This document shows positions 6,096 to 59,043 of a stretch of 64,000 nucleotides of DNA, in pieces. This stretch comes from an uncultured Bacteroidales bacterium (GTDB lineage: Bacteria > Bacteroidota > Bacteroidia > Bacteroidales > CAIXZF01), in NCBI GenBank assembly GCA_903923925.1, contig CAIXZF010000019.1:1-64000 (forward strand), written 5' to 3'. The notes beneath the pieces are model-generated. The model was not told the DNA's origin and did no database searches. It saw nothing but the letters and a program-made list of their open reading frames with translations. How positions within the stretch are numbered: position 1 is the stretch's first letter; the number at the start of each line of letters is the position of its first letter. Position numbers and translations under genes: made by a program.

Positions 6096-8714
6096 CTATT
6101 TCGTTGCGGATTTTTTAGTAATAAGGATTCCGTTTGTTCTTTTTCTCAGATCATGTTTAATTGCAGCTTTCTGGATTGCTGCCTGGCTGCAGGGACCAAT
6201 AAAGGCATGAAACTTAGCACCACTTTGTGCCAAAAAACCTGGCAATAGGCTAACATGGTTACCTGCTTTATAGGTAACATCTGTTACCGGGTTGATAGAA
6301 AGAGTACGGGTTGAAGAAATCCAGGATGAGGCTGCCCAATATTCCTGTGGAGTTACACTAATCTGGTTATTGGGATTAAGTGTATATGTGGCAGCGCAGT
6401 GCCCGTATAGAGGGGATCTCCAGATTCCCCGGCCAAAAGTGGAAGCAATGATCATATTATTGGCGGTATTGATTTCCATCTCGAAAACTAAGGTATATGG
6501 AAGGCCGTTAAAAAAAGGTACCCAGTCTGCCATCGTATTGTCTTTGTAGAATATCCCAACATCTGTTCCTAAATAAAGTCCATCATCACTTCCGGGTTCA
6601 TAATTTATACAGTTTGCAGGCACATTTGGAAGTGAACCGGAGATATTCGTCCAGGTAAGACCTGAGTTGCCCGAATAATATACTTTCTGCCCTGCACTAT
6701 AGCCCCTACAAGTAACCCAGACATGTGTTGCATCTGCCGGGTCAACAACAATATAGGAGAGATTAGCATTCAAAACGGGCAAGGTACCAGTTACATTCGT
6801 CCAGCTGCTGCCATTATTCTGTGTCGTAAAAACACGGAATGTGGTAATCCCATAAATCCTGTTTGTATTGTTGACACCGTGGGCAATCTGGATAAACTTA
6901 CCTGATCCATTTCCTGTTCCCATTGGAAGCCAGCTTGAACCACTGTTTGTTGATTTCCAGATATCTGTATGACCTAAATATAAGGTTGTAGGTGTAGTTG
7001 GATGCATTATAAAGGCAGTATTCCAAATTTTATTGCTTGGAGTTACAATCCCGGGTGTAATGAGGCTATAGGTGCTGCCGCTGTTTGTAGTCCTGTATAA
7101 TTTGTCATAAATAGCTGCATAGCGTATGTTTGAATTATTGTAATCAATCATACACCGGAATCCGTCAGCCCCCCTGTCGTGCCGGTATGTGCCTGCAGTG
7201 AAATCGAGTGTATTACATCCATTGTCCTGTGTACCACCAACAACCAGGTTCATGTTGGATGGCGTCATTCCGATGCGATAAAATTGACTTATCTCTAATC
7301 CTGAAGTCTGATCCGCCCAGCTTGCTCCCCAATCCGTTGACCTGTATATTCCACCATCGCTGCAACAATACAGATAATTATTGAGGGGATTGAATGCTAA
7401 GCAGTGAATATCGGCATGCGTATATTGTTCACCTGCAGTTCCTTCATACCAGAATGAGGAGTGTGTCCAGGTTAATCCGGAGTTTGCGGATTTCCAGCAA
7501 TTTATACCGCCAAAAAAAACATTTGACTGGAGTATTGGTGAAACTGCCAGCGAAAGATCATACGTACACTGGTCGGTAGTGTCGTTTCCATTGACATCAT
7601 ACCCAAAAATATTTGGAGTAATACTCGACTTTAGTGTGAAGGAGGTGCCACTATTCGTTGACAGATAACAGCCGGTAAAAGGTAATTGAGTTTTGTTTTG
7701 ATTCTGGCGGCCATACAGCAGGTATACATATGAGGTATTCGAAGGAGCCACAGCCAGTCCAATCCTGTTTGACTGATTAAGCGGCAAACCGGAGCTTATC
7801 AGAGTCCAGGTATTTCCTGTATCTGTTGATTTATAAAAACTGAGAGCTGATGTCGCATAAATTGTTGAAGGTGTGCCAGGTTTGAATTCCATATCCATGA
7901 AGATGCCCGTTTGTACTACTGACCAGCTTGCTCCTCCGTCAACAGTCTTATATATGCCGCTTGAAGTGGCTGCCAGAAGAATAAGATGATTGTCAGGATT
8001 CATCAGTAACCTGTAACCGTCATTGAGGTTGGGAATAGCCCAGCTAAGCCCGGTAGGCTGCCAGTTTAGTCCTCCGTCCCATGTTTCAAGAACACCAATA
8101 GATTGCGTATACCTTGATTCACAGTCACCTGTCATGATGTATATATGATTGGCATTGTCGGGTTCAATGGCAATGCCGGAGACTCCCAGACTTGAGATAC
8201 CGTCTGTGAGTGGCGTCCAGAATCCGGAAGTATTGCGCCACAATCCTCCGGCAGGAGTTCCAACATAATAAATATTCGGATCTGTCGGGTGAAATTCAAC
8301 ACAGTTTACCCTGCCAACTCCACCATTCCAGCCACTGCCCAGAATGTGATCGCTGGGGCCCATCGAGATCCAGCTTCCCGAATCATAGTTTGCAGGCAGG
8401 ATGATGGGGTTAAAGTTGTCGAGGTATTGCTGGTATTCCTCCAGGTTTTTTGCTTGAATATTAAAAATATTCCCGGAGGGATAGTAGCGGGGTTCAGCAA
8501 TAAATTCCCAGCGTTTAAACTGGTTGAACCCACTTCCCTTTCCCTGATCTCTGCCGTTAAAATAATTGTTGAATTCATTCTGAATGCTGAAGAAATTGTT
8601 GTGCTCCTTATCCTTCATCATCTCCAAATAATGTTGTGTGCCGGGAGTGGCCTGGGCTGAAACCTTTAAAGAGAGAAAAGACAACACTGTGAGCAGTAGA
8701 ATTTTTGTTTTCAT
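6096..8714 (-). CDS. Secreted BNR/sortilin-type beta-propeller protein (cassette copy 2)
   Basis: 872 residues, colinear from end to end with the copy 1 propeller protein and clearly similar (for example both have NNYLYCCSDGGIYRSTD and ISQFYRIGMTPSNMNLVVGG or a near match). It has a signal peptide (LSFLSLKVSAQ), BNR blades (STNSGSSWLPM, TTQNNGSSWTNV) and the C-terminal motif YKAGNHVSLLPGF ... AKFHAFIGPC. The differences are substitutions with very few indels, pointing to an old duplication of a functional gene rather than a recent copy. It lies 12 bp after its fibre partner, the same spacing as in copy 1. The final codons overlap the repeat mosaic described for 5547-6095. Confidence 0.85.
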   Translation of the reverse strand: MKTKILLLTVLSFLSLKVSAQATPGTQHYLEMMKDKEHNNFFSIQNEFNNYFNGRDQGKGSGFNQFKRWEFIAEPRYYPSGNIFNIQAKNLEEYQQYLDNFNPIILPANYDSGSWISMGPSDHILGSGWNGGVGRVNCVEFHPTDPNIYYVGTPAGGLWRNTSGFWTPLTDGISSLGVSGIAIEPDNANHIYIMTGDCESRYTQSIGVLETWDGGLNWQPTGLSWAIPNLNDGYRLLMNPDNHLILLAATSSGIYKTVDGGASWSVVQTGIFMDMEFKPGTPSTIYATSALSFYKSTDTGNTWTLISSGLPLNQSNRIGLAVAPSNTSYVYLLYGRQNQNKTQLPFTGCYLSTNSGTSFTLKSSITPNIFGYDVNGNDTTDQCTYDLSLAVSPILQSNVFFGGINCWKSANSGLTWTHSSFWYEGTAGEQYTHADIHCLAFNPLNNYLYCCSDGGIYRSTDWGASWADQTSGLEISQFYRIGMTPSNMNLVVGGTQDNGCNTLDFTAGTYRHDRGADGFRCMIDYNNSNIRYAAIYDKLYRTTNSGSTYSLITPGIVTPSNKIWNTAFIMHPTTPTTLYLGHTDIWKSTNSGSSWLPMGTGNGSGKFIQIAHGVNNTNRIYGITTFRVFTTQNNGSSWTNVTGTLPVLNANLSYIVVDPADATHVWVTCRGYSAGQKVYYSGNSGLTWTNISGSLPNVPANCINYEPGSDDGLYLGTDVGIFYKDNTMADWVPFFNGLPYTLVFEMEINTANNMIIASTFGRGIWRSPLYGHCAATYTLNPNNQISVTPQEYWAASSWISSTRTLSINPVTDVTYKAGNHVSLLPGFLAQSGAKFHAFIGPCSQAAIQKAAIKHDLRKRTNGILITKKSATK

Positions 8715-23322: not shown

Positions 23323-24589
23323 ACTCATTGAATTAATTCTCATATTCGGTATAATAAGTGTTCATGCTCTGAACTTATCCGCACAGCATCTGAAAATTAA
23401 GGAGGAGAAAGAGATTAACCTGGCTAACGATACTGTGAATAATATTTTAATGGATGAGGCTACCGGAAAATATCTTTTGCATTATTTCTCACATTCAAAA
23501 ATGCATTCAGTAAGAACAGGATTGCCAGATTCTATACTATCTGTCGCTGGAGTTATTGATAATAACAACCAACGGATTCCATTAAGATCCATCGAATATT
23601 GTGTTAAATACAAGTCTGATACACTCACTACCAGCGACAATCCAATAAATGGGGGACTGTTAATAAGACAATACGTTATAAAAAACGGCAAAGCTGATTT
23701 GTTTTATGAAAAAAACGTAATTTTTTGTAATTCAATAAAGGCACTGAAAAACGGCAATTATTTAGCTTCTGATAACAACGAATTATTTGTTTCTTCAACT
23801 TTATTATTAAATGATAAATTTGAAAAGATTGCTGAGATAAAATCAATATTCACATCATATATTCAAATGCAACCCTATGATAATGGCTCAGAAGTAATAC
23901 TCGTAAATATTAATTCGGATATTTCTGACACGGATCAGAAAAGTGAATTGGTAAGAGTAAACGCGATCACAGGGAATATATCTAACAGATATTATTTTCC
24001 TGATGGCGATATTGATTTTGGTGATGCAAATATGATTAATGATCACGTATCTATTACGTTCTCAAAAAATAAACCATTAGAGTTTGGAACACGAATATTG
24101 AATTCTGATGGAAGTACTGCCTGGGAACTGCCTCAGGGTTTATTTCATGATCGTTGGGTTGAAGGTAACGTAAATCATCAGATTATTTACGATGATAAAA
24201 GTGGTGTTAAATGCAGAAATATCTTCGATCAGAAAACAACCTGGTACCTTTCTTTAAAACACTTAAGGAAACATCTACTCGCCGGAAAAAAATGCAGAGA
24301 ACGCAGGAAGTTAAAAAACATATCTGGAAATAAGAACTTAATGATAAATAAAATCTTAAAAATTTCTGATAAAAATTGCCCTGAGTTTGTGGCTTTTTTA
24401 CATACTGCTGGTGTGAAGAAAAATCTAAATTGGCTGACAGGCTTATGCCTTATAAGTGATAAAGGGAAAGTGATGTCAACGGATGTATTTGTTAGTGAGC
24501 CGGGAAGATATGAGCTTTTTTATGTGCGGGGAGAATTGTGGGTTATGATAAATAAAAAGCTATTAAAATATGAAATCATTAGTAATTAA
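23312..24589 (+). CDS. Secreted protein of unknown function
   Basis: 425 residues with an N-terminal signal peptide (LILIFGIISVHALNLSAQ). The body is rich in beta-type segments (KYLLHYFSHSKMHSVRTG, SEVILVNINSDISDTDQKSE, GKVMSTDVFVSEPGRYELFY), suggesting a propeller-like fold, but I find no recognisable domain and no T9SS tail. Codon use looks more AT-rich than in the neighbours. It overlaps the gene before it by 11 bp and the gene after it by 20 bp, so it belongs to the same operon and probably to the same assembly. Confidence 0.75.
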   Translation: MKNRLIELILIFGIISVHALNLSAQHLKIKEEKEINLANDTVNNILMDEATGKYLLHYFSHSKMHSVRTGLPDSILSVAGVIDNNNQRIPLRSIEYCVKYKSDTLTTSDNPINGGLLIRQYVIKNGKADLFYEKNVIFCNSIKALKNGNYLASDNNELFVSSTLLLNDKFEKIAEIKSIFTSYIQMQPYDNGSEVILVNINSDISDTDQKSELVRVNAITGNISNRYYFPDGDIDFGDANMINDHVSITFSKNKPLEFGTRILNSDGSTAWELPQGLFHDRWVEGNVNHQIIYDDKSGVKCRNIFDQKTTWYLSLKHLRKHLLAGKKCRERRKLKNISGNKNLMINKILKISDKNCPEFVAFLHTAGVKKNLNWLTGLCLISDKGKVMSTDVFVSEPGRYELFYVRGELWVMINKKLLKYEIISN

Positions 24590-27500
24590 TATAATATGTA
24601 CTGTATGTTCGGTTAATTCTTTACTATACAGTCAGGTGCTATGGCCGGTGCAACCTCAGAATCAGCCTCACTCTATTTCTGGCACCAAAGGTGAATACCG
24701 TGACTATTCACGTTTCCATCAGGGAGTTGACATTCTGAATGGAGATGATTATAATATTTACGCTGTTGAATCAGGCACTGTTGGAGCGCTTCTGAACCTG
24801 AATACTAATATTGCTACAATTCAAATTTCAGGCAACAGCGGAACGTATTATTATGTGCATGTGCGGCCGATTACTGGTATTAGTGAGCATGTGTATGTTG
24901 ATCAGGGTCAATTAATCGGAGTGATGGTTTCTCAGCCGAGTATTCATGTACATCTGTCTTCTTCAACTTTTCCTAATATGTTAGCCCACAGGCTATGTAA
25001 CTATACGGATAATATTCCACCTCTTATTCAATCTGTTAGTTTTCGGCAGAATGGACTGAGCCTTACCAATAATTCTCCAGCTTTTCTGTATACTGTTCCT
25101 TTTGCTGGAGGAAATTCTACTGTCGTTTACAATAAAGTTGATATCATGGCCAGAGTATCCGACATGATCGGCGGATACACCTGTGCTCCATCACGTTTAT
25201 CCTACGAAATATACAATCAGAATAATGTAAGTGTGGATAATACTGCTGTTTGCAATCTTAATTTTGAGCAAACAGCTTTAGATGCTGCTGGCTCGTATTG
25301 TTTTGGCAGTGGCACAACTTTTTCTCCGCCAGTTTATAATTATGTTTTAACTGCACATTCAGGAACTACACCCTATAACCGGTACTGGAATACCGGCCTT
25401 TTAGCCGGAGCCACTGAAAACTGGACTGGAAGTGCTGCTCTAAATTCCCGTATAAACGATGAAAGCCATTACCCGGACGGAGCTTACAATGTTCAGGTAG
25501 TTGCCAGGGATGTGGACTACGACAATACGTTTAATCAAACTGTAAAGAATTGCCCTGTGGTGGTTGATAATTTCAGACCCTATATTGCGAGTGTGCAGGT
25601 GAGAAAGGACAACGAAAATGGTCAGCTTTGCTATAAAGGTGAATGGACGTGGAATTTCGGAGTTCTTACGTATGGAAATCCTGTGAATAGTGCAGCATTT
25701 AATCCGCTAAAAATGTGGATTAAAATTGTTAGCTCAGAATCTATGACAGATGTTTGGATGCAAACAGGCAGTTTTAGCGGGATATTAACAACTGCAGTAA
25801 GCGGAACGCTTGCTAAAGAATGGATTTTCTTAGTTCCTGTTACTGCACTTACTGAGGGGAATAACAACCTTAAAATCAAAGGACACGACCTGGCGGGAAA
25901 TGAAGTTGAAACTTTTGTTTTAACTCAACCACTTATTGCGTCGAATATCCCCATCCACAGATTGGATGGCAGCTGGTCGCCTTCACCCAATCCCGGTTCC
26001 GATAACATCCATTCATTCAAAATAGAATTGCAAAATGCGCCTGTCGCCAATTTTACTCCCATTGAAACTACTGTAAACGTGGGCGATGATGTTGCATTTA
26101 CGGATCTTACAACCGAGGAACCCACACAATGGGACTGGAGTTTTGATGGAGGAGACCCTGCATACAGTAGTTTAACTAATCCAATTGTAACCTATGACTA
26201 TGAAGGCGATTTTATTGTTGTACTGCATGTAATGAATCAGGCGGGATATAGCAATATTACGGGAATTATACATGTTACCTCTGCCGTTATTCCTCCTGTT
26301 GCAGCATTTTCTCCCGACGCTCTGAATATTTCCCCTGGAACTGTTGTGAATTTTGCTGACTTATCAACTGGAAATCCGGACGTATGGGATTGGGATTTTG
26401 ATGGAGGCTGTGCTCCAACGAATGTTCAGAACCCTGAAGTTATTTTTGATTATCAAGGTCAGTATACCGTAACATTGAAAGCGGAAAATTCTGCAGGAAT
26501 AAGCTTTGCAACTGGAATTGTTAATGTTTCCGATGCCTATTTTCCGGTAAATGTTATGTGTAGTGTTGCACCATTCATGGCAGTTGTTGGAACTCCTGTT
26601 TATTTTTCAGGTACAGTGATAGGAGGGACTCCGCCATATGAATTCCTGATCGATCCTGGTGATGGCTCAATGCAGCTTATTACGGAAAATTCTCCGAATT
26701 TTGGTGTTTATCAGGTTTTCAACCAGAATGGCGACTATACAATGACGGTGACTGCCGTAGATGCATACGGAAACAGCGGGACTTGTTATGAATCTGTAAC
26801 AATTTTCGGTGCAAATCCCTGCGCAAGTCTGCATGTTGATTTTGTAACAGCCAGCGGACCTTTAGCTGTTGCAGTGAATTCACCTTGTACGTTTACAGAT
26901 CAAACCTCAGGTGGTTCTCAGCCCTATCTGTATGCCTGGCATTTTTATCCGGATCCGCAAACAAATGTACAACCTTCTGTTGCATACAGTTTCAATGTTA
27001 CGCCTCCTCCTGTTGTTTATACGCAAGCTGGGAATTATCCTGTTTCCTTGCATGTATACGACAATATGGGCTGTGCTCAAACTATAGTAAAAGATATCAG
27101 TGTCTATGTTCCTCAGCATTGCCTGGTTGCTAAGATTAACATCGGAAGCCAGAATTATCATAAAATCAGGAAGGGAAACAGTTGTTTCTGGGACTTCAGC
27201 TATTCCCTTTCGGATTATAATTGTTCCGATCCACCCGGAAGTGGAAACATGCCCTGCGAAACAGAAGCAGAATGGCGGCTTCTGGCTTATCCCTCAGGGA
27301 ATCAGCTGGAATACAAGCATACTTTTCCGAATGATCCCCAGAGTTGTACTCCCAGCAGTGTAAATGATCTCTTATTTGAACATAATTTCACTCAGGATGG
27401 TAAATACCTGCTTAAACTCAGAATCTGGGACAATACCTGCGGGGTGCAGAATGGATATATTTGCGAAGATCAGACAAGTGTTTTGCTGGATGTAGTGGAT

Positions 27501-28010
27501 TGTAACAAACTTTTCAATGTTTGCGGACAAATTTTCCTTCCGGGAAGTTATTCAGATGTTGATGCAGGCACTATACATATTGGCGGCAGTTCCTGTAGCG
27601 CTATCTATATGAATGGCAGCAAAATTAAGTATCACGCTTATGAGCAGCTTGTAATTGCCGACAATGTTGTAATAATTGAAGGTGCCGAATTTCATGCAGA
27701 TGCGCTGGATTGCCCGGCCACAATGCCTTGCGACAAAACCTCTGTTGCTGAGGATATGAATCGGCAAAATGAAGAACCCTTGATTTATCCGAATCCGTCT
27801 TCAGGACTTGTTACTATCAAAATGCCTGAGGCAGTATCCCTTTATTCTATTCTCGTACAAAACACAAAAGGGCAGACGATTTTCACTAAACCCGATTGTA
27901 CTGATCTGCCTTTTACCATCGACCTGAGTAAAGAAGCAACAGGACTTTACATCCTGAAAATCTGGACTCAATCTTCGGTTTACACAGGACGGATTGAGAT
28001 TATCCGGTAA
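24570..28010 (+). CDS. Large secreted LytM-like (M23), PKD-repeat, T9SS-sorted protein
   Basis: 1146 residues. A signal peptide (to about LLYSQ) is followed by a LytM/M23-type domain at residues about 30-150. It keeps the H-x3-D motif (FHQGVDILNG) and the H-x-H motif (SIHVHLSS), so zinc binding is possible. About residues 490-560 and 575-650 are PKD domains (VGDDVAFTDLTTEEPTQWDW; SPGTVVNFADLSTGNPDVWD), and two more PKD-like stretches follow (GTPVYFSGTVIGGTPPYEF; NSPCTFTDQTSGGSQPYLYA). Near residues 1010-1050 is a VVIIEGAEFHADALDC motif like the tails of the propeller proteins. The C-terminus is a T9SS sorting domain (PLIYPNPSSGLVTIKMPEAV, ATGLYILKIW). It would be displayed outside the outer membrane. 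Confidence 0.85.
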   Translation: MKSLVINIICTVCSVNSLLYSQVLWPVQPQNQPHSISGTKGEYRDYSRFHQGVDILNGDDYNIYAVESGTVGALLNLNTNIATIQISGNSGTYYYVHVRPITGISEHVYVDQGQLIGVMVSQPSIHVHLSSSTFPNMLAHRLCNYTDNIPPLIQSVSFRQNGLSLTNNSPAFLYTVPFAGGNSTVVYNKVDIMARVSDMIGGYTCAPSRLSYEIYNQNNVSVDNTAVCNLNFEQTALDAAGSYCFGSGTTFSPPVYNYVLTAHSGTTPYNRYWNTGLLAGATENWTGSAALNSRINDESHYPDGAYNVQVVARDVDYDNTFNQTVKNCPVVVDNFRPYIASVQVRKDNENGQLCYKGEWTWNFGVLTYGNPVNSAAFNPLKMWIKIVSSESMTDVWMQTGSFSGILTTAVSGTLAKEWIFLVPVTALTEGNNNLKIKGHDLAGNEVETFVLTQPLIASNIPIHRLDGSWSPSPNPGSDNIHSFKIELQNAPVANFTPIETTVNVGDDVAFTDLTTEEPTQWDWSFDGGDPAYSSLTNPIVTYDYEGDFIVVLHVMNQAGYSNITGIIHVTSAVIPPVAAFSPDALNISPGTVVNFADLSTGNPDVWDWDFDGGCAPTNVQNPEVIFDYQGQYTVTLKAENSAGISFATGIVNVSDAYFPVNVMCSVAPFMAVVGTPVYFSGTVIGGTPPYEFLIDPGDGSMQLITENSPNFGVYQVFNQNGDYTMTVTAVDAYGNSGTCYESVTIFGANPCASLHVDFVTASGPLAVAVNSPCTFTDQTSGGSQPYLYAWHFYPDPQTNVQPSVAYSFNVTPPPVVYTQAGNYPVSLHVYDNMGCAQTIVKDISVYVPQHCLVAKINIGSQNYHKIRKGNSCFWDFSYSLSDYNCSDPPGSGNMPCETEAEWRLLAYPSGNQLEYKHTFPNDPQSCTPSSVNDLLFEHNFTQDGKYLLKLRIWDNTCGVQNGYICEDQTSVLLDVVDCNKLFNVCGQIFLPGSYSDVDAGTIHIGGSSCSAIYMNGSKIKYHAYEQLVIADNVVIIEGAEFHADALDCPATMPCDKTSVAEDMNRQNEEPLIYPNPSSGLVTIKMPEAVSLYSILVQNTKGQTIFTKPDCTDLPFTIDLSKEATGLYILKIWTQSSVYTGRIEIIR

Positions 28011-28159
28011 TAATTGCAGGAAAAGGCCACAAATGCTTAGAGCGCATTCGCAGAGCCCGGCTAATCCCGGAGGGATTTTATTGTTATAGAAAGAAAAAGG
28101 GAGACATAGTAATAACAAGTCCCTTAGGGGCGGTATGAAGCTATTCTGAAACTGAGCAA

Positions 28160-28209
28160 TTAATATTAAGTTAACAAAAACTTAATGTTGAAGTAATAGT
28201 AAATTAATC
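28160..28209 (+). promoter_or_regulatory. Five TTAAnn hexamers at exact 11-bp spacing (Pho-box-like)
   Basis: TTAATA (28160), TTAACA (28171), TTAATG (28182), GTAATA (28193) and TTAATC (28204) follow one another with starts exactly 11 bp apart. This is the layout of PhoB/PhoP-type direct-repeat boxes, for example the TTAACA repeats of Bacillus PhoP. TCCCTTTG (28208-28215), one base off the TAnnTTTG promoter box, lies at the downstream end. Autoregulation of the following two-component genes is inferred. Confidence 0.55.
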
Positions 28210-28296
28210 CCTTTGCATTGGATTTGAAACAGATGTTCAGTTATTTGACATTAATATCGCGATGCAAGGATATTCCGATCCCTTCACTTTAATTAA

Positions 28297-28307: not shown

Positions 28308-28994
28308 ATGGATAAGAGTAAATTCAGAATACTTTTAGTTGATGATGAACCTGATATTCTGGAATTCGTGGGGTATAATCTCAGGAATGAAGGATATCAG
28401 GTTACTACCGCTGCAAATGGTAAGGATGCATTACGAAAAGCCAGGGAAATTAATCCGCATATTGTATTACTGGATGTGATGATGCCTGAGATGGACGGCA
28501 TGGAGACTTGCAGGGAGATGAAAAAAATGCCTTCTCTGAAAGAGACAATAATTGTTTTTTTTACTGCCAGAAGTGAGGATTATTCTCAGATATCTGGTTT
28601 AGAAGCAGGAGCCGACGATTATCTTACAAAACCGATAAAGCCCGCTGTACTTTTAAGTAAGGTTAATTCGCTTTTACGCAGGTATAAAGGAGAGATTGAT
28701 AATTCGCATATTCTTGAAGTCGGGAATATGCAAATTGACAAAGAAAAGTACATTGTTATTATTGATGGTATTGAGCTTATTCTGCCCCGTAAAGAGTTTG
28801 AACTATTATCGCTTTTGGCGTCTAAACCGAATAAAGTTTTTACAAGAGATGAGATATTTTCGCGGGTTTGGAGCAGTGATGTGATCGTTGGTGAAAGGAC
28901 TATCGATGTTCATATCCGGAAAATCCGGGAGAAAACCGGTATGGAAAATCTGAAAACGATTAAGGGTGTTGGATATAAATTTGAATACAGATAA
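28308..28994 (+). CDS. Response regulator, PhoB/OmpR family
   Basis: 228 residues from the ATG at 28308 (MDKSKFRILLVDDEP); an upstream TTG in frame adds only two residues. The receiver domain has the acidic pair D12-D13, the phosphoacceptor D56 (VLLDVMMPEMDG), the T of FFTARSEDYSQ and the K of YLTKPIKPAVL. The winged-helix DNA-binding domain (about 130-228) ends in SSDVIVGERTIDVHIRKIRE and IKGVGYKFEY, typical of PhoB. It acts in the cytosol. The kinase gene starts 2 bp after its stop. Together with the upstream hexamers this points to phosphate control, though other stimuli are possible. Confidence 0.93.
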   Translation: MDKSKFRILLVDDEPDILEFVGYNLRNEGYQVTTAANGKDALRKAREINPHIVLLDVMMPEMDGMETCREMKKMPSLKETIIVFFTARSEDYSQISGLEAGADDYLTKPIKPAVLLSKVNSLLRRYKGEIDNSHILEVGNMQIDKEKYIVIIDGIELILPRKEFELLSLLASKPNKVFTRDEIFSRVWSSDVIVGERTIDVHIRKIREKTGMENLKTIKGVGYKFEYR

Positions 28995-28996: not shown

Positions 28997-30061
28997 ATGC
29001 GTTCAACAAAACCCGAAATCCTGGCTTTTATTTCTGCTGCAATCGCAGTTGCTGCTTTAGTCCTGTTTTATACGATTCATTATTATTTAGTTGGTGAAAG
29101 ATTTACTTTTCTTTCCCTTCTGGGTTTAATTGCTGCTCTTTTTGCATCGATCTACTTTGTCAATAAATACATATTGAGCAAATTTATTTATGATAAAATT
29201 AAATTGATATATAAAACTATCCATTCGTTAAAATTAAATAAGGAAGAAAAATACAGTAAACTAAATCAAATCAAAGGAGATGCAATTTCCACAGTAAGCA
29301 ATGAAGTAGTTGAATGGGCGCAAAATAAGACAGATGAAATTGAGCAACTTAAGAAACTGGAGGTCTTCAGGAAGGAATTTCTTGGAAATGTTTCACATGA
29401 ATTAAAGACTCCAATTTTTAATATTCAGGGTTATGTTCTTACACTATTAAATGGGGCATACAAAGATCAGCAAGTGGCAGTAGACTACCTGGGCAAGACC
29501 GAGCGGAATATCGAGAGAATGATTTCTATTGTGGAAGAGCTGGAAACGATTTCAAGGTATGAAACCGGTGAGTTTGAATTGGAAAAGACCTCATTTGATA
29601 TCATTTCATTAACAAAAGAGGTGATTGATTTCCTGGAACCGTCTTCCAGATCAAAGGAAATAAAGTTATTTATTGTAAATGATAATTTACCTTCAAAACT
29701 AGTGTTTGCTGACAGGCTTCGCATCCGGCATGTGCTTACCAATTTATTAAGCAATTCCATTAAATATGGCAGGCAGGGTGGCAGAACAAAAGTGAGCTTG
29801 TACGATATGGATGAAAATATACTGATTGAAGTTTCTGATAATGGAATCGGGATTTCAGCTGAGCATCTACCGCGCCTCTTTGAACGATTCTACCGTGTTG
29901 ACAAAAGCAGATCACGCCTTCAGGGAGGTTCAGGACTTGGATTGGCAATAGTGAAACATATCCTTGAGGCACATAAACAAACTATAAATGTGCGGTCAAA
30001 ACAAGATGTAGGATCCACCTTTTCATTTACCTTGAAAAAAAGTGGCAGGATAATACTATAA
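28997..30061 (+). CDS. Sensor histidine kinase, PhoR-like
   Basis: 354 residues. Two N-terminal membrane helices (about 9-30 and 36-57) have only a very short loop between them, so no periplasmic sensor domain exists, as in several PhoR proteins. A dimerisation helix follows, then the HisKA box FLGNVSHELKTPIFNIQGY with phospho-acceptor H134. The ATPase domain has the N box (NLLSNSIKYG), G1 (VSDNGIGIS), F box (FERFYRVDKSRS) and G2 (GGSGLGLAIVK). It would phosphorylate the PhoB-like regulator encoded 2 bp upstream. There is no PAS domain. The downstream neighbour, citF, converges 10 bp away. Confidence 0.93.
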   Translation: MRSTKPEILAFISAAIAVAALVLFYTIHYYLVGERFTFLSLLGLIAALFASIYFVNKYILSKFIYDKIKLIYKTIHSLKLNKEEKYSKLNQIKGDAISTVSNEVVEWAQNKTDEIEQLKKLEVFRKEFLGNVSHELKTPIFNIQGYVLTLLNGAYKDQQVAVDYLGKTERNIERMISIVEELETISRYETGEFELEKTSFDIISLTKEVIDFLEPSSRSKEIKLFIVNDNLPSKLVFADRLRIRHVLTNLLSNSIKYGRQGGRTKVSLYDMDENILIEVSDNGIGISAEHLPRLFERFYRVDKSRSRLQGGSGLGLAIVKHILEAHKQTINVRSKQDVGSTFSFTLKKSGRIIL

Positions 30062-30071: not shown

Positions 30072-31646
30072 TTATTCTTTTTCAGGAATAACCCTCCTTA
30101 CAACGTCAATAACAGTACCATCAACCCATTTTATTGCGGCAACGATTTCTTCACCGAGTTTTGGATTAACAGGTTTGCCGCCACAAATTTTTTCTGCTTC
30201 GGCCTGAAGTTCTTCAATGGTTTTGATGGGTAGTGAAGAGTTTTTGAGCTTTTCAATGAGATCCGTCCTCAAAGGGTTTATTGCTATACCTCTTTCAGTA
30301 ACGATTACATCAATAAGTTCACCGGGACCGCAAATTGTTGTTACTTCGTCGCGGATTACAGGCATACGGTCGCGGAACAATGGGATAGGAAGAATTGTGC
30401 ATTTTCCAAAAAGGCAGTTTTGCCAGCCTCCAATACCATGAAGCAGGTACCCGTCAGAATGGCTTACAACATTCGCATTGAAGTTCACATCAACCTCTGT
30501 TGCACCCAGAATTACAACATCTATCATCGAGGCAAAGTTTCCTTTGCCGTGATAATTGTAGCTTGTAAACGGGCTGGTAGCCAAATGATTCGGATTTTCA
30601 CGCATCGAACGGACACCTTCGAGGTCGAAAGTTTGTCCATCAAGGATGTATTCAACAAGTCCTTCTTCAAGCATTGCCACCGGATATTTATTGGAACCAC
30701 CTCTGAGGAAACGTGCCTTGATCTTGCGATCGCGACAAATCTGACTGAAATAAATCCCGATACTTAGTGCTGTGCCACCAGCTCCTGCCTGGAAAGAAAA
30801 GCCATCCTTAATAATTCCGGCTTCATCGCAAAAGCGGGCTGTCATCTCTGCAATCATAAGCCTGTCAGGGCTTTTTGTGATTTCAGTGGTTCCTGAAATA
30901 ATTTTTTCAGAAAGCCCTATTTTGTCGAGTAAAACAACATAGTCAACATGGTTTCCGTGAATCTGCCAGGGTACACATGGGAAAGGTACAAGGTTGTCTG
31001 TAACAACTATTACTTTATGGGCATATTGTGAATCTGCAAGAGCAAAGCCCAGTGGACCGCAGGCTGTTGGCCCGTTAACCCCGTTGGCATTTCCAAAAGG
31101 ATCGGCTGTTGGTGCTGCAATTACTGCAATATCAATTACAACATCTCCATCCTGAACCGATTGATAGCGTCCGCCATGAGAGCGAAGCACGCCCAGTCCC
31201 TGCATTTTTCCTTCCGAACAGAATTTGCCAAGAACACCGTTCATACTTCCTTCAATGTGATGGATTGTGCCATCTTCGAGGTATTTTATTAAAGGCTCAT
31301 GACAAGGAAAGGATGCAGATGGAAACCACATCAGGTTTTTAATTCCCAATTCGTGGGCAATGTCAAAGATTTGGTTCGCAATAAGATCCCCATTCCTGAA
31401 GTGATGATGCGTCGAAATTGTCATCCCGTCTTTGAGACCACAGGCTATCAATGCATCTTTAAGGCTGTTCAGCATTTTATTGCCGTCGGCAGGATAATTG
31501 GCACAGCTGGGTATTGGAGGAGCATATTTGTTTCCGGTAGGTATATATTTGCCAACTCCCATGTAAGGCACTACAGTTTTGCCGTTAATTTCTTCCGGAA
31601 CCATGCGTCCGACAGCATTTTTTACCAGTTTATCATACTTTTTCAT
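30072..31646 (-). CDS. citF: Citrate lyase alpha subunit (citrate CoA-transferase)
   Basis: 524 residues from the ATG at 31646 (MKKYDKLVKNAVGRMVPEEI). CitF transfers the acyl carrier's thiol-bound group from acetyl to citryl. Family segments are seen: TISTHHHFRNGDLI, NLMWFPSASFPCHEP, GVLGKFCSEGKMQGLGVLRS, VNGPTACGPLGFALADSQYA, GAGGTALSIGIYF, VTTICGPGELIDVIVTERGI. The frame overlaps the CitDE gene by 14 bp, and a GGAGG stands 9 nt before the ATG inside that gene, so translation is probably coupled. Length fits the family (about 505-520). Confidence 0.93.
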   Translation of the reverse strand: MKKYDKLVKNAVGRMVPEEINGKTVVPYMGVGKYIPTGNKYAPPIPSCANYPADGNKMLNSLKDALIACGLKDGMTISTHHHFRNGDLIANQIFDIAHELGIKNLMWFPSASFPCHEPLIKYLEDGTIHHIEGSMNGVLGKFCSEGKMQGLGVLRSHGGRYQSVQDGDVVIDIAVIAAPTADPFGNANGVNGPTACGPLGFALADSQYAHKVIVVTDNLVPFPCVPWQIHGNHVDYVVLLDKIGLSEKIISGTTEITKSPDRLMIAEMTARFCDEAGIIKDGFSFQAGAGGTALSIGIYFSQICRDRKIKARFLRGGSNKYPVAMLEEGLVEYILDGQTFDLEGVRSMRENPNHLATSPFTSYNYHGKGNFASMIDVVILGATEVDVNFNANVVSHSDGYLLHGIGGWQNCLFGKCTILPIPLFRDRMPVIRDEVTTICGPGELIDVIVTERGIAINPLRTDLIEKLKNSSLPIKTIEELQAEAEKICGGKPVNPKLGEEIVAAIKWVDGTVIDVVRRVIPEKE

Positions 31647-32859
31647 TAGCTTCTTCCTCCATCCAGTTTTGTGAGAGTTTACCCATTCCAATAGCAAGAT
31701 CTATAGTGCGTTGAGCGCGTTTAACAACAGGTGGATCGATCATTTTTGTGCCAAGAGAGACTACACCAAGTCCTTTGCTTTCGGCTTCAATGAACGCCTT
31801 TACAATCTTTTTAGCTTTATCAATTTCTGTTACATCAGGAGCGAAATTTTCATGAATAACCTTGATTTGCCTGGGATGAATACATCCCATTCCATCAAAT
31901 CCCATTGCTTTCGACTTAATTACATTCTGTTTCAGAGCTTCCATGTCTGCGATGTCCGAAAAAACAGAATCAATTGGCTGGATTCCTGCAGCCCGAGACG
32001 CAACAACCACTTTCGATCGGGCAAAAAATGATTCTGTGCCTTCGGCAGTTCTTTTAGTGCCTAAATCTGCCGTAAAGTCCTCAAGCCCAATTGCAAGGGC
32101 AACAATATTATCTGCACATTGGGCAATTTCGTAAACATTAACCACTCCGAGGCTACTTTCAATTATTGGCATAAGCCATATGTTCCCGGAGATCTTGTGT
32201 TTAATCTTAAGGTCGTTAATTCTTTTGTTAACCTGAATAATCTGGTCAACGGATTCGCATTTCGGAATTAAGATAAGGTTAACATTGTGAGAGACAACAT
32301 AATCAAGGTCGTCCAAACCTGCCGGTATCTGGTTAATACGGACCATTCGCTCAGCCCCGTAGAAATCTAAAGATCTTAGTGCATTGCGCACAATAAACCT
32401 GGCCTCATATTTTTTTGCAGGAGCAACAGCATCTTCAAGATCGAGGATAATGCCATTTGGTTTGTGGAGACCGGCATTTATCATAAGGGGAGGCGTGTTC
32501 CCGGGTAAGTAAAGCCTCGAAAAACGGTAACAGTCTTTTGCAGTAGTGTATTTATTCTCTTCCAGGAATTCAGTAAGGAATTCTTTTTTGTCAGGAATAA
32601 GCAGTCGAATAGCTGCCTCCATACGTGCAGCTATTACGAATGGAAGCGCACCTGCGTCTTCAATTTCAATAATTGCATTTTTTATTTCAAAGAAATCAAG
32701 TATTTCCTGTGCGAGATAAATTATTGTGTCACCATACATTACTTTTACTTTACTGTTCAGCTTAATCTGAATACCAGTATTTTCTGTCAGGGTAATACTA
32801 ACATGACAATCCGACCGGATACCTTTTCCCTTATTTCCTGCACTAGCGGTTTTTTCCAA
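31633..32859 (-). CDS. citE: Fused citrate lyase gamma (acyl carrier) and beta subunits, CitD-CitE
   Basis: 408 residues from a TTG at 32859. Residues 1-95 read as CitD, the acyl carrier: TASAGNKGKGIRSDCHVSIT aligns with the SxD motif of CitD, whose serine (S16 here) would carry the 2'-(5''-phosphoribosyl)-3'-dephospho-CoA arm; VMYGDTIIYLAQEILDFFEI and ALPFVIAARMEAAIRLL also match. Residues about 105-400 are CitE (citryl lyase of the HpcH/HpaI aldolase type): NGIILDLEDAVAPAKKYEAR, MVRINQIPAGLDDLDY, IWLMPIIESSLGVVNVYEIA, GFDGMGCIHPRQIKVIHENF. The next ATG would be at residue 41 and would cut off the carrier serine, so the TTG with its Shine-Dalgarno is strongly favoured. The two parts are separate genes in most organisms. 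Confidence 0.9.
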   Translation of the reverse strand: MEKTASAGNKGKGIRSDCHVSITLTENTGIQIKLNSKVKVMYGDTIIYLAQEILDFFEIKNAIIEIEDAGALPFVIAARMEAAIRLLIPDKKEFLTEFLEENKYTTAKDCYRFSRLYLPGNTPPLMINAGLHKPNGIILDLEDAVAPAKKYEARFIVRNALRSLDFYGAERMVRINQIPAGLDDLDYVVSHNVNLILIPKCESVDQIIQVNKRINDLKIKHKISGNIWLMPIIESSLGVVNVYEIAQCADNIVALAIGLEDFTADLGTKRTAEGTESFFARSKVVVASRAAGIQPIDSVFSDIADMEALKQNVIKSKAMGFDGMGCIHPRQIKVIHENFAPDVTEIDKAKKIVKAFIEAESKGLGVVSLGTKMIDPPVVKRAQRTIDLAIGMGKLSQNWMEEEANEKV

Positions 32860-34923: not shown

Positions 34924-36915
34924 ATGACTGAACACTCTTCTAGTAAATTGGTTGTGGCGAAAAACCCTTTCTCAGGTTTCAAAAATAAAAGATTTGAAAG
35001 CAATAGTGCGGCGATTTCTGCTTGGTGGAGTTTACTGCTTTTGCTTCCCTTATTGGTATTGTCGAGGTTATGTTTGTTTTTTTTCAATATCCATATATTT
35101 AATGGTATAGGGTTTAAAGAGTTTGGTTTAGTGATATTCGGCGGATTAAGGTTTGATTTATCTATTCTGATAATGGTAAACTTCCCCTTTATCATCGTTT
35201 CTTCGATTCCTTTCAGATTCAGACAAAAACAGTATTACAGGTTCTTTTTGAACATACTTTTTAGTGTTGTGAATTCCATTTTATTACTTCCAAATTATGT
35301 TGATGCCATATATTACCGCTTCACCATGAAAAGAATGAGCGGCGATTTTCTGAATTATGCAAAGGCTGAAGCAGGTGATATAGCTCAGCTTTTACCGCAG
35401 TATTTAAAGGATTTCTGGCCGGTTACCTTACTGTGGCTTTTGTCAGTCAGTATTCTCATTCTTATTGTGAAAAAAGTTTCTTTTATTTCTTCTGCTAAGT
35501 ACTCAGCGAAAACCAGATGGAGGGAAGGCGTAATTTTTGTTGGGGTTATTTTCCTTTCAATTATTGGCATAAGAGGTGGTTTGCAATTAAAACCAATAAA
35601 CATTATTACCGCTGGAAATTATGCCGAACCCCGCAATGTAGCTCTCGTTTACAGTAGCCCTTTCAGTATTGTTAAAACCTATACTATGCAGGGATTAACA
35701 GAAGTAAAGTATTTTACCAATGAATCAGAAATGACGAAGTACTTTAATCCCTTAAAAAATGTGGGTAAATCATGTCTTCAACTAAACAACAATAGCCTTA
35801 GTGCTAAAAATGTTGTAATTATTATTTTGGAAAGTTTTTCTGCTGAACGCATTGGTGCATTAAGCAAAAAGTACAACAGCACGGGAAGTCTTACTCCTTT
35901 TCTGGATTCTTTAATTGGACAAAGCTTGTCTTTTGCGGGTATTTCTAACAGCAAACGTTCAATAGAAGCACTGCCGGCAATACTCGCTTCATTGCCTTCG
36001 CTGATGAATAATGATTTCATTACTTCCCCCTACGCCGGTGATCAGATAAACAGTATTGCCAGTATTCTCAGAAAGCATGGATATGCTACTTCTTTTTATC
36101 ATGGAGGAAGCAACGGAACCATGGGATTTGATGCATTCTGCCGCATGGCCGGAATAGAGAATTATTATGGCCGGACCGAATATAATAATGATAAGGATTA
36201 TGATGGGAAATGGGGAATTTGGGATGAAGATTTTTTTCAGTTCTTTGCCAAAGGACTGAACACAACAAAAGAACCTTTCGTTGCCGGGATTTTCAGTCTT
36301 TCATCTCATCATCCTTATAGCATTCCAGCGAAGTATAAAAATAAATTCAAGAAGGGAACCGAACCCATCGAATTCACTATTTCATATACTGATTATGCCT
36401 TGCAACAGTACTTCAAAACTGCGGAAAAGCAGCCCTGGTTTAAAAACACACTTTTTGTAATAACTGCTGATCATACATCAGAATCGAAAGACCCATATTA
36501 TCAGAGTAGAATTGGCAATTATTCCATTCCAATAATTTTCTACAAGCAGGGGAGTGAGTTGAAGGGTAAATTAGATCAGGTAGCTCAACAAACTGATATT
36601 ATGCCTTCAGTACTTGATTACCTGAAAATTAATGAGCCTTATATCGCATTTGGAAATAGTGTTTTCGACACTACGGCCGGAAGGTTTGCCGTAAATTATA
36701 TCAGCAATACCTATTGTTTGTGTATGAACCCTTACGGTCTTATCTTTGAAAACGGGCACAGCAGCGCATTATATAACACACAGACGGATATTTTGTCTGT
36801 CAATAATCTTCTGAAATTGCAGCCAGTTGACGTAAAGAAAATGGAGCCTTACGTAAAGTCGTATATTCAGCAATATAATTCCCGTGTTTTAGGCAATAGG
36901 TTGGTAGTTAAATAA
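34924..36915 (+). CDS. LTA synthase-family membrane phosphotransferase (sulfatase fold)
   Basis: 663 residues. About five membrane helices occupy residues 35-225 (WWSLLLLLPLLVLSRLCLFF, FFLNILFSVVNSILLLPNYV, WPVTLLWLLSVSILILIV). A sulfatase/alkaline-phosphatase-fold domain faces the periplasm at residues about 290-600: VIIILESFSAERIGALSK (metal-binding Glu), SNSKRSIEALPAILASLP (with the probable nucleophile in KRS), SFYHGGSNGTMGFDAF, FSLSSHHPYSIP, FVITADHTSE. The family moves phosphoglycerol or phosphoethanolamine groups from phospholipids; Bacteroidota have no classical lipoteichoic acid, so the acceptor is unknown. The lipid kinase gene directly abuts it. Confidence 0.87.
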   Translation: MTEHSSSKLVVAKNPFSGFKNKRFESNSAAISAWWSLLLLLPLLVLSRLCLFFFNIHIFNGIGFKEFGLVIFGGLRFDLSILIMVNFPFIIVSSIPFRFRQKQYYRFFLNILFSVVNSILLLPNYVDAIYYRFTMKRMSGDFLNYAKAEAGDIAQLLPQYLKDFWPVTLLWLLSVSILILIVKKVSFISSAKYSAKTRWREGVIFVGVIFLSIIGIRGGLQLKPINIITAGNYAEPRNVALVYSSPFSIVKTYTMQGLTEVKYFTNESEMTKYFNPLKNVGKSCLQLNNNSLSAKNVVIIILESFSAERIGALSKKYNSTGSLTPFLDSLIGQSLSFAGISNSKRSIEALPAILASLPSLMNNDFITSPYAGDQINSIASILRKHGYATSFYHGGSNGTMGFDAFCRMAGIENYYGRTEYNNDKDYDGKWGIWDEDFFQFFAKGLNTTKEPFVAGIFSLSSHHPYSIPAKYKNKFKKGTEPIEFTISYTDYALQQYFKTAEKQPWFKNTLFVITADHTSESKDPYYQSRIGNYSIPIIFYKQGSELKGKLDQVAQQTDIMPSVLDYLKINEPYIAFGNSVFDTTAGRFAVNYISNTYCLCMNPYGLIFENGHSSALYNTQTDILSVNNLLKLQPVDVKKMEPYVKSYIQQYNSRVLGNRLVVK

Positions 36916-36921
36916 TTGGTA

Positions 36922-37806
36922 ATGAGTGATTCCAGGAAAAAAGTTTGTTTTATTGTAAATCCTAAATCCGGCACTGGTAAGCAGAAATGTATTGATCAGG
37001 CAATTGAGAAGTATATTGACAGGAATAGTATTGACCATGTGGTAAGGTATACCGAATATGCAGGGCATGCAGCTGTTCTTACGCGAGCTGCCGTTGCGGA
37101 AGGTATGGATGCGGTGATTGCTGTTGGAGGAGATGGTTCTGTAAACGAGGTGGCCAGTGCATTGTATGGAACAAATGTGGCGCTGGGAATTATCCCGATG
37201 GGGTCAGGGAACGGTCTGGCACATCATCTTAAATTATCGTTTAGTCCTAAAGAGGCAATAGCATCTGTTAACAGCTTTAAACTCACTGCTATTGATACTG
37301 CCTTTGTAAACAATGTGTTTTTTGTAAGTATTGCAGGCCTGGGATTCGATGCTCATGTAGCTGACCTTTTCGCAAAAGGGACCAAAAGAGGTTTTCTTTC
37401 CTATTTCAAAATAACGATAACTGAATACCTGAAATATAAGCCGCTGAAATATAAAATACTAATTGATGGAAAGAAGTTAAAACGCAGGGCGATGATGATT
37501 GTTTTTGCTAATTCCGACCAGTTTGGCTATAATTCATCAGTTGCCCCTGATGCCAGCATTCGCGATGGTTTGCTTGATGTTTGTATTTACGGGAAGCCAA
37601 CATTATGGCAGGCACCCTGGCTCACCTGGCTTTTATTCACAAGGAGGATCACAAGCATTAAAGAGGTAGAAAGTTATAAGGCCAAAGAAATAAGTATTTA
37701 CAGGAAGAAGGATTTGCCTGTAAATATTGATGGGGAACCAATGCAGATTTCGCGCGATCTGAAAGTTAAAATAGTTCCGCTTTCGTTGAAGGTTATAGTT
37801 GGCTGA
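36922..37806 (+). CDS. Diacylglycerol kinase-type lipid kinase (YegS/BmrU family)
   Basis: 294 residues from the ATG at 36922 (MSDSRKKVCFIVNPKSGTGK). Motifs of the family are present: NPKSGTGK, AVGGDGSVNEVASAL (GGDGT/S loop), GIIPMGSGNGLAHHL and the C-terminal INIDGEPMQ. It phosphorylates a lipid such as diacylglycerol in the cytosolic leaflet. It starts 6 bp after the LTA-synthase-like gene. Because that enzyme type releases diacylglycerol from phospholipid, a kinase that recycles it is a sensible partner (established for LtaS and DgkB in Gram-positives, inferred here). Confidence 0.9.
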   Translation: MSDSRKKVCFIVNPKSGTGKQKCIDQAIEKYIDRNSIDHVVRYTEYAGHAAVLTRAAVAEGMDAVIAVGGDGSVNEVASALYGTNVALGIIPMGSGNGLAHHLKLSFSPKEAIASVNSFKLTAIDTAFVNNVFFVSIAGLGFDAHVADLFAKGTKRGFLSYFKITITEYLKYKPLKYKILIDGKKLKRRAMMIVFANSDQFGYNSSVAPDASIRDGLLDVCIYGKPTLWQAPWLTWLLFTRRITSIKEVESYKAKEISIYRKKDLPVNIDGEPMQISRDLKVKIVPLSLKVIVG

Positions 37807-47374: not shown

Positions 47375-49519
47375 TTAATTATCCCGGAGAAGTTTCAGCT
47401 TAGCTTCCAGAAGTTTCATTTCTTCTTTTGCCTTATTGATTTTTTTCTCGAATTCCTCCTTCAGGATAGTTGCATTTTTAGATGCAGCCAGAAATCCAAT
47501 GTTGTTTTCCCAAAGATGAATGTCCTCCTGGAGTTGCTTAACTTTTACTGACATTGAAACTTTTTCGCGGCCCAGGGTGCGGAATGCATCAGGAGAATCC
47601 TTAACGATGTTATCGTAACGGTTTTTGTATTCCATGGTGCTCATTTCCACAGCACTGATTTTCAGCTTATCAAGTTGTTTGTTGATCGTTTTCCTGAATT
47701 CAGCCTGCAGTCTGTCTTTTTCCTTTATTGGAACATGACCTATATCCATCCATTCGCGCTGGAAGGAGTTGAGAATATCCAGATTTTGTTTTCTGTCTTC
47801 TGTGAAAACATATTCTTCAACCTTTGTAATAAGTGATTCCTTCTTCTGCAGATTCTCCTGTTCGGAAGCCTGCATAGTTGAGAAATGTGATGATTTGTGC
47901 GCAAAAAATTCATCACAGGCGGCACGGAAACGTTTCCAGATTTTGTCGGAATGCTTGCGTGGAACCGGACCTACTTTTTTCCAGTCTTCCTGAAGCTGTA
48001 TAAGATCCTGAGTGGTTTTCTTCCATTCAGTACTAGCTTTAAGTGCTTCTGCCTGAACACAAAGATCGAGTTTGATGTTGTAATTATTGAGTTGTTCTTC
48101 TTTAATCCCACCAAAATATTCTTTTTTTACAGAGAAATAGCCGTCAATCAAGGATTTAAATCTCTGCCAAACCTCTTCGTTCTGGGTTTTTGGAGCTGGC
48201 CCGATAGTTCTCCATACTTTCTGAAGTTCAGTAAGCTGGTTTGTAGTATCCTGCCATTGTTTAATTGAATTGTTGCCTTCAGCCACAACCTTTTCAGCCT
48301 GATCGCAAAGTGCATTCTTGGCCATTAAATTGCCTTCCTGCTCATCTTTTATTTCAGTGTAATACTCTCTTCGTCTTTCGTTGATCTTGTCGGTTGCATC
48401 TTTAAAGCGGTTCCAGATCTCATCTTTTTTGTCCTGAGGTACTGGTCCGATTTCTTTCCACTCATCGTGGTATTGCTGCAATTGTTTGAAAGATTTTAAG
48501 ATGGAAGTTTCCAGTAAAAGTGCTTCTGCTTTTTCGCAGAGTGCCATTTTAGCTTCAAGGTTCTTCCGTAAATCAAGATCTTTTAACTCATTGTTAATTT
48601 TTACTTTATCAAAGAATTTCTCAACAAGAAAATGATAATTCTGCCATAAGCCATTAGCTTCAGTGCGAGGAACCATTCCAACCTGTTTCCATTGTTCCTG
48701 CAAAGAGCGGAAATCGTCGTAGGTTTTCTTTAGTGTTTCTTCGGAGCTAATAAGCGCTTTGAGTTCATCAAGAATGCGTTTCTTGGAATCAAGGTTCTTT
48801 TGTTTCTCGTGCTCCTGTTCCTCGTTATATTTTAATTTGTTTGTTTTGTATATATTGAAAGCTTTTCTGAATCTTTCATCCAGTTGATCTTCAGGGAGTT
48901 CATACTCTTCTTTTACACCACCTTCTGCAATGAACTGTTCATAATGTTTCGTTCTAATGTCTTTTGTAGCCTTTAGAAAAGCAACTTTTGCCAAAGCAAC
49001 CTGTGTTTTAATTCCATTAACATCAGATTCTTCAACGGTTTTCTCCATTAATTCAACCAATTCTTCCCTGCTCATTGTTTCGTAATCGGCAGCAGAAATT
49101 AGTTCCTCCTCATGTTTTAGCTCTTCAACATCATCGTGAAGTATTTCTTCCCCGGCTTCCAGGTGTAAATCTTCAACAATTGAGGTAGTCTGAGCATTAT
49201 CCAGTAATGCCTCATCAGAAACCTGTTCCAGATAATTCAGTTCTGTGCTCAGCTGTTCAGGGGCTTCTGTACTGAAGTGTTCAACTTCTGCAACAATTTC
49301 GGGTTGTTCTGTTTCAGCAGCTACTTCGGTTGTTTCAACAACTTCTGTTTCCACTGCTGATTCTACAATTTCAGATGTTTCAATTACTGATTCGGGAACT
49401 GCTACAACTTCGGCAGCGATTTCTACAACTTCAGCATTTTCCTTTTCTTCAAAGGAAACGGGATTCTCCTCCTGTGAAACCTCAATAATTTCTTCAGGAT
49501 TCTGATTCAGGTGTTCCAT
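47375..49519 (-). CDS. DUF349-repeat protein
   Basis: 714 residues. The first 170 are acidic, low in complexity and rich in Glu/Val/Thr (VVEIAAEVVAVPESVIETSE), probably disordered. Residues about 215-650 hold at least five copies of the DUF349 repeat, recognised by L-x-x-x-W-K-x-I/V-G-x-V/A-P (EQWKQVGMVPRTEANGLW, DEWKEIGPVPQDKKDEIW, KVWRTIGPAPKTQNEEVW, EDWKKVGPVPRKHSDKIW, REWMDIGHVPIKEKDRLQ). It is helical and cytosolic, ending in a coiled coil. DUF349 proteins are universal in the phylum, but the function is not settled. A 9-bp inverted repeat lies in the leader at 49574-49610. Confidence 0.9.
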   Translation of the reverse strand: MEHLNQNPEEIIEVSQEENPVSFEEKENAEVVEIAAEVVAVPESVIETSEIVESAVETEVVETTEVAAETEQPEIVAEVEHFSTEAPEQLSTELNYLEQVSDEALLDNAQTTSIVEDLHLEAGEEILHDDVEELKHEEELISAADYETMSREELVELMEKTVEESDVNGIKTQVALAKVAFLKATKDIRTKHYEQFIAEGGVKEEYELPEDQLDERFRKAFNIYKTNKLKYNEEQEHEKQKNLDSKKRILDELKALISSEETLKKTYDDFRSLQEQWKQVGMVPRTEANGLWQNYHFLVEKFFDKVKINNELKDLDLRKNLEAKMALCEKAEALLLETSILKSFKQLQQYHDEWKEIGPVPQDKKDEIWNRFKDATDKINERRREYYTEIKDEQEGNLMAKNALCDQAEKVVAEGNNSIKQWQDTTNQLTELQKVWRTIGPAPKTQNEEVWQRFKSLIDGYFSVKKEYFGGIKEEQLNNYNIKLDLCVQAEALKASTEWKKTTQDLIQLQEDWKKVGPVPRKHSDKIWKRFRAACDEFFAHKSSHFSTMQASEQENLQKKESLITKVEEYVFTEDRKQNLDILNSFQREWMDIGHVPIKEKDRLQAEFRKTINKQLDKLKISAVEMSTMEYKNRYDNIVKDSPDAFRTLGREKVSMSVKVKQLQEDIHLWENNIGFLAASKNATILKEEFEKKINKAKEEMKLLEAKLKLLRDN

Positions 49520-49658
49520 GTTCTACTTTAATAGTGAATGATGATTTAAATGAATTGTTATTATTCGTTATTACAACATTTTAATATAATAGATATGTAG
49601 AAATGTTGTTTTTCGGAAGATTCCATTGTTGTTTTTCGTCCTTTCTTAAAAAGGATTG

Positions 49659-49666
49659 CAAAAATA
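49659..49666 (-). promoter_or_regulatory. -7 box for the DUF349 gene
   Basis: Minus-strand TATTTTTG, a full TAnnTTTG match, giving a leader of about 135 nt that contains the ACAACATTT / AAATGTTGT hairpin at 49574-49610. Confidence 0.5.
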
Positions 49667-49714
49667 GTAAATATTTAGTCCGCAAAGAAAGTATTTTAAA
49701 AGGCTTATAAATAA

Positions 49715-52003: not shown

Positions 52004-52044
52004 CTGATAATAATTTTAATATATTGGTAGAAGTCACACCAGGT

Positions 52045-53226: not shown

Positions 53227-53254
53227 AGGGAAAATTTAATATTGAATGATTTTG

Positions 53255-53262
53255 CAAATGTA
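53255..53262 (-). promoter_or_regulatory. -7 promoter box for the trans-sulfuration gene
   Basis: Minus-strand TACATTTG, a full match, 29 nt before the start codon; the upstream terminator of the thioredoxin gene begins 18 bp further on. Confidence 0.6.
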
Positions 53263-53279
53263 CGTTTTAAGCAGGAAAC

Positions 53280-53312
53280 AAAAAAGGCCGCCTTGCTCCG
53301 GCAGCCTTTTTT
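53280..53312 (-). terminator. Intrinsic terminator of the thioredoxin gene
   Basis: AAAAAAGGCCGCC pairs with GGCAGCCTTTTTT (one mismatch) around TTGCTCC. Six T follow on the minus strand; it could act both ways. Confidence 0.85.
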
Positions 53313-53328
53313 AAAAAGAATAATTGCA

Positions 53329-53688: not shown

Positions 53689-53723
53689 TGGTATAAATAT
53701 TTGAAATTTTAATGATTCTGAAA

Positions 53724-54197: not shown

Positions 54198-54240
54198 TGG
54201 ATGTGTTATTTTAAATTAATATTTGTTGAAATTCACGATG

Positions 54241-54248
54241 CAAAAATA
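54241..54248 (-). promoter_or_regulatory. -7 box for the thioredoxin pair
   Basis: Minus-strand TATTTTTG, a full match, 44 nt before the start at 54197, back to back with the box at 54291-54298. Confidence 0.5.
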
Positions 54249-54290
54249 AAACATTTTTAGGAATAAATCGCTTAAGTATCACTTTTTGTT

Positions 54291-54298: not shown

Positions 54299-54317
54299 TT
54301 GAAAATTAATTTTAATA

Positions 54318-59023: not shown

Positions 59024-59043
59024 AATTTTTTTATATATGTAAA

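Follow-up and report, generated by a model that had tools for sequence, protein, structure and literature searches.

Five hexamers at exactly 11-bp spacing stand before a phoB-like response regulator gene in the window (the whole stretch of 64,000 nucleotides analysed here), and very probably constitute a Pho box, that is, a PhoB operator giving autoregulated expression of phoBR. This reading comes from sequence comparison within the genome and across relatives, and it provides a concrete candidate for a phosphate-starvation switch site in a phylum where such sites are poorly defined. Earlier measurements cover the PhoB regulon of Bacteroides fragilis and the phosphate response of Flavobacterium; a definition of the Pho box or of its promoter geometry in Bacteroidales was not found in the open-access literature searched.

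The array upstream of the regulator gene

The five units, read directly from the forward strand in 11-bp phase, are TTAATA (28160..28165), TTAACA (28171..28176), TTAATG (28182..28187), GTAATA (28193..28198) and TTAATC (28204..28209). The earlier note had described them as five TTAAnn hexamers at exact 11-bp spacing; the positions and the spacing stand, the TTAAnn form is found in four of the five, the fourth being GTAAnn, and all five fit KTAAY. GTAAY units are common in the pst arrays of relatives. The array thus consists of direct repeats of about 7 conserved nucleotides with an 11-bp period, as is expected of a Pho box. Its G+C content is 16%, and it sits in a 297-bp gap between a gene for a T9SS-type secreted peptidase (24570-28010) and the regulator gene. 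A terminator-like hairpin in the same gap, AATCCCGGAGGGATT followed by a T-rich tail (28063..28077, + strand), may set the array apart from the preceding gene, being a consensus match of which two were found against 1.3 expected.

When the upstream 300 bp were shuffled 20,000 times with dinucleotides preserved, 11-bp runs of three units arose 5 times and none of four or five units was seen. Across the whole + strand of the window, with 402 occurrences of KTAAY, the longest run is the one of five at 11 bp, and at the other spacings tested (6 to 30 bp) no run exceeds three. The spacer letters vary between units, so a single unit repeated in tandem does not account for the array.

The regulator and kinase genes

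The PhoB/PhoR-like pair that had been proposed downstream was recovered by family matches as an OmpR/PhoB-family regulator and a histidine kinase. The phoB-like gene (28308..28994, + strand, 228 aa) starts at ATG 28308, with an alternative in-frame TTG at 28302, and encodes a receiver and a Trans_reg_C domain; its top family is PhoB (TIGR02154). The scores of 204 bits for TIGR02154 (cut-off 296) and 202 bits for NF053854 (cut-off 270) both lie below the curated equivalog cut-offs. The protein is the top NF053854 match of the genome, in which no regulator passes the NF053854 cut-off, and its orthologues, at most 68% identical, occur in Flavobacterium as well as across the order. Best matches assign the genome to the Bacteroidota, probably to the Bacteroidales. 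It has three further full-length OmpR-type regulator genes; kinase-like sequence lies upstream of these, and an array of this sort is absent.

The phoR-like gene (28997..30061, + strand, 354 aa) encodes HisKA and HATPase_c domains behind two predicted N-terminal membrane segments; a membrane-anchored kinase of this type adjoining phoB is what is expected of PhoR. A PAS domain gave no match in Pfam, and the kinase too stays below the equivalog cut-offs (250 bits vs 400 for PnpS, 231 vs 334 for PhoR). It is 46% identical to the phoB-linked kinase of Flavobacterium soli.

Further arrays in the same genome

The 4.6 Mb genome has six places with three KTAAY units spaced by 11 bp, and only two with at least four perfect units: the array in the window and one at C61:32716 (TTAACAATTTCTTAACATTAAATTAATATAAGCTTAACC). 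The second is directly 5' of the gene for an O/P-type porin, after which come pstS, pstC, pstA, pstB and phoU; the array thus recurs before pst in the same genome, and the search for similar series near phosphate genes that the earlier note had proposed ended in a positive result. Both arrays were also recovered by a blind profile, a 60-bp, sequence-only model of box plus promoter built from 13 sites of other genomes, with the own genome left out. Among the best 150 first-look candidates that were scored, and with E-values that are rough, the first rank went to 28159..28216 on the + strand (23.2 bits, E 4.2e-4) and the second to the pst array (19.4 bits, E 0.007), the next match having an E of 0.34.

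A further array, spotted by eye at C72:32200-32330 (L266:9200-9330), consists of TTAACA, TTAACG, ATAAAC and TTAATG at 11 bp, the third unit being imperfect, and precedes a gene for a PlcP/LpxH-like (calcineurin-like) phosphoesterase of 177 aa with glycosyltransferase genes nearby. Its profile matches are weak, with E 0.3 or more; as a further Pho site it is suggestive only, and the locus is a possible phosphate-starvation lipid-remodelling cluster. No array was found at the PiT-DUF47 operon of this genome. The three-unit sites C10, C36, C95 and C115 were rejected as Pho sites and treated as background, no phosphate gene being recognised alongside; one lies inside a gene and one overlaps a promoter-like element, TAACTTTG.

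Conservation in relatives

Upstream of pst operons, 11-bp KTAAY pairs were found in 16 of 20 relatives, all from other families of the order (against a mean of 0.53 and a maximum of 5 in 1000 shuffles). Twice and three times this distance are frequent pair spacings as well (22 bp in 12/20, 33 bp in 9/20), with each of the other spacings from 6 to 33 bp present in at most three. Before phoB, an 11-bp pair is seen in 10 of 28 order-level relatives and any other spacing in at most four, which leaves 18/28 pairless; phoR precedes phoB in several of the pairless relatives, so that the operon start lies elsewhere there. The one available genome of the same family contains a phoB orthologue (60%) and neither an array nor a detectable pst operon. 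The earlier note had let its reading depend on the repeats being present in close relatives, and this holds in part, for those 10 order-level upstreams and not for the single same-family genome.

The sites of relatives extend to other phosphate genes. Applied to 59 genomes, the blind profile found non-training sites a short way upstream of phoB, pst or porin genes; G054, G039, G005, G030 and G003 are examples. Long-form PiT transporters are directly 3' of in-register or model-found sites in five relatives, three of them confirmed by Pfam and two recognised by N-terminal sequence, and further sites are located directly before an Na/Pi cotransporter, a DUF47-PiT operon, a polyphosphate kinase operon and a porin-pstS pair. 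The conservation before phosphate genes expected of a Pho box is thus seen for pst, phoB, PiT, Na/Pi and ppk. TonB receptor genes are preceded by sites too, as at L317, where six units are followed at 9 bp by TAGCTTTG, and some sites in relatives precede no phosphate gene.

Separately from these sites, near-perfect 11-bp tandem repeats of TTAATGTC(T/C)AC or TTAATGAC(T/C)AC, in up to about 11 copies, were observed in two relatives, G047 (C14, C54, C78 and C231) and G053 (C276). They have the period of the Pho arrays, but their copies are nearly identical.

Register to the core promoter

Two candidates for the -7 element follow the array, each matching TAnnTTTG with one mismatch. The first, TGGATTTG (28219..28226, + strand), begins 9 bp past unit 5, in the common register; the alternative, TCCCTTTG (28208..28215, + strand), lies one helical turn upstream, likewise in register, and is in the register of the profile match. 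Near 32 arrays, 20 of 30 TAnnTTTG-like octamers (matches of 5/6 or better) start at -2, 9, 20 or 31 bp from the end of the last unit. At -2 the unit shares the TA of the octamer, which makes this class in part a given; when it is left out, the count is 16/26. A phase-free pattern search over the 59 genomes gave spacer peaks at 9 and 20 bp, with 17 and 33 cases among the 150 matches listed, and among the same 150 a further 17 at 21 bp, most other spacers having 3-10.

The commonest placement in relatives is thus 20 bp before the -7 element, the place expected from the consensus for the TTTG of the -33 element (PMC7366714). With TAnnTTTG mostly beginning 9, 20 or 31 bp past the final unit, the arrays cover the -33 region. 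A fixed phase to the core promoter, as is expected of a Pho box, is seen across the arrays, the window itself having two in-phase candidates with one mismatch each. Taken with the PhoB/PhoP type of direct repeat, this appears to be a promoter geometry characteristic of the Bacteroidota.

Comparison with known Pho systems

Nearly the same unit and the same period are known from another phylum, with another sigma factor, in the PhoP box of Bacillus subtilis, where TT(A/C/T)A(C/T)A is repeated every 11 bp; we liken the two by description. The PhoB box of E. coli is built of 11-nt direct repeats bound head to tail (PMC4415409), and like the present arrays it has an 11-bp period and lies near the core promoter of pst and phoB. 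The two, again likened by description, differ in that the E. coli box has CTGTCAT-type units that take the place of the -35 element, whereas the arrays here have two to six KTAAY(A) units over -33, with TAnnTTTG at -7.

Within the phylum, PhoP of Riemerella anatipestifer recognises the motif TTTAACA by DAP-seq and shifts its own promoter upstream of phoPR in gels (PMC9603813). The core TTAACA and the autoregulatory site upstream of phoPR are shared with our array, whereas the text of that paper contains no 11-bp array or -33/-7 register and compares the motif to ArcA. Deletion of phoPR in the same organism raised pstS mRNA 8-fold, contrary to simple activation (PMC5399024). In B. fragilis, pst rises with phosphate limitation and requires PhoB, which binds a 512-bp pstC promoter fragment, the box sequence being undefined there; the PhoRB regulon includes ppk and a phosphate permease, matching what the arrays of relatives predict (PMC3547664).

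In Flavobacterium soli, phoB is accompanied by a TonB receptor gene in divergent orientation, the gene for a similar kinase and one for a family-28 glycosyltransferase; this gene order closely resembles that of the PhoBR cluster of F. johnsoniae. In the latter species phosphate depletion raises the TonB receptor by 8.0 log2 and phoB by 3.1 log2 (PMC8115612). A forward-strand array was sought before Flavobacterium phoB genes and not found; the 11-bp pairs there occupy the other strand and point to the TonB receptor gene, which is divergent. On that strand, units stand 20 bp (44/70) and 31 bp (32/70) before nnnnTTTG in Flavobacteria. At loci L028-L102, all from Flavobacterium, the TonB receptor strand carries two 11-bp pairs some 100 bp upstream of phoB, and the offset between them is 19 and not 22 bp.

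Predicted mechanism and alternative explanations

That the array is a PhoB/PhoP direct-repeat box belonging to a Pho regulon, as first suggested from the repeats before the gene pair, is supported by the pst array of the same genome, by the pst upstreams of the 16 relatives and by the first two blind ranks. Each 11-bp repeat unit would be occupied by a single protomer of phosphorylated PhoB (28308-28994), the protomers being arranged head to tail along the same face of the helix. In a Bacteroidota sigma-A-type promoter the array would span the -33 region, so that bound PhoB would replace the missing TTTG of the -33 element and recruit RNA polymerase, as in class II activation. Low phosphate would then lead to positive autoregulation of phoBR and co-induction of porin-pstSCAB-phoU, possibly together with the gene for the PlcP/LpxH-like phosphoesterase. 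The position of the array points to autoregulation of phoBR; from Riemerella PhoP and B. fragilis PhoB we infer the binding by PhoB, its phosphorylation and the dependence on phosphate, and activation, not repression, is likewise taken as the probable mode. Against the Pho-box reading we count the same-family genome without an array, the 18 pairless phoB upstreams, the regulator scores below cut-off, the PiT-DUF47 operon without an array, the mismatched -7 candidates and the rise of pstS mRNA in the Riemerella phoPR deletion.

A PhoB site might also serve the opposite end, with bound PhoB repressing or merely tuning its own operon. The geometry in the window lends itself to this, the array lying one turn closer than the commonest 20-bp placement if TGGATTTG is the -7 element and overlapping that element if it is TCCCTTTG, and the raised pstS of the Riemerella phoPR deletion (PMC5399024) agrees with it. 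We nevertheless consider negative autoregulation unlikely, given that the commonest placement in relatives, at 20 bp and thus at the -33 position, is typical of activation, and that both B. fragilis pst (PMC3547664) and F. johnsoniae phoB (PMC8115612) rise on phosphate limitation.

Less likely still, and in our view improbable, is that another OmpR-family regulator with a similar TTAA-type recognition binds the array and has phoBR as its downstream target. Direct repeats near 10-11 bp are common among the sites of winged-helix regulators, and three more full-length candidates of the OmpR type are encoded in the genome, but these are without such an array before their own genes, and the presence of arrays in relatives tracks phosphate uptake genes. 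An AT-rich chance pattern or a tandem-repeat remnant without regulatory meaning might be read from the low G+C content and from the true 11-bp tandem repeats with TTAAT elsewhere in two relatives; it is contradicted by the shuffles, in which four units were never reached, by the differing spacer letters, by the conservation before pst, by the phase to the -7 element and by the first blind rank, and we reject it as next to impossible. We therefore retain the reading of the array as a Pho box.

On a broader scale, we think it fairly probable that a general Bacteroidota Pho operator exists, made of 11-bp KTAAY units in fixed phase to TAnnTTTG, in which PhoB takes over the -33 contact of the phylum's unusual primary sigma factor, and serving pst, PiT, Na/Pi, ppk, TonB receptor and phoBR genes in Bacteroidales and Flavobacteria. 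With a consensus and a register rule, the phosphate response of the phylum becomes predictable and directly testable, and if the general operator is true, sequence alone could suffice to read the regulons of many uncultured bacteria of the phylum. The consensus and the rule also offer a simple case of activator and promoter for a primary sigma factor with a poorly defined -33 element, which could not be identified in F. johnsoniae (PMC7366714).

Other features of the window

Downstream of the kinase gene, one open frame on the - strand (31633-32859) contains both citD (citrate lyase acyl-carrier) and citE (beta subunit) domains, a fused gamma-beta subunit, and adjoins citF (30072-31697). On the + strand, 34924-37806 encodes an LtaS-like sulfatase-fold protein and then a YegS/DagK-type lipid kinase, a pair unusual in a Gram-negative bacterium. 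Two reading frames on the - strand, at 972-3593 and 6096-8714, look like a tandem duplication: they have 873 and 872 aa, each is followed by one of about 650 aa, and a 123-aa antisense frame occupies the same place in each. Finally, several frames of 702-716 aa at 47375-63391 on the - strand, four of them consecutive, look like a tandem paralogue family.
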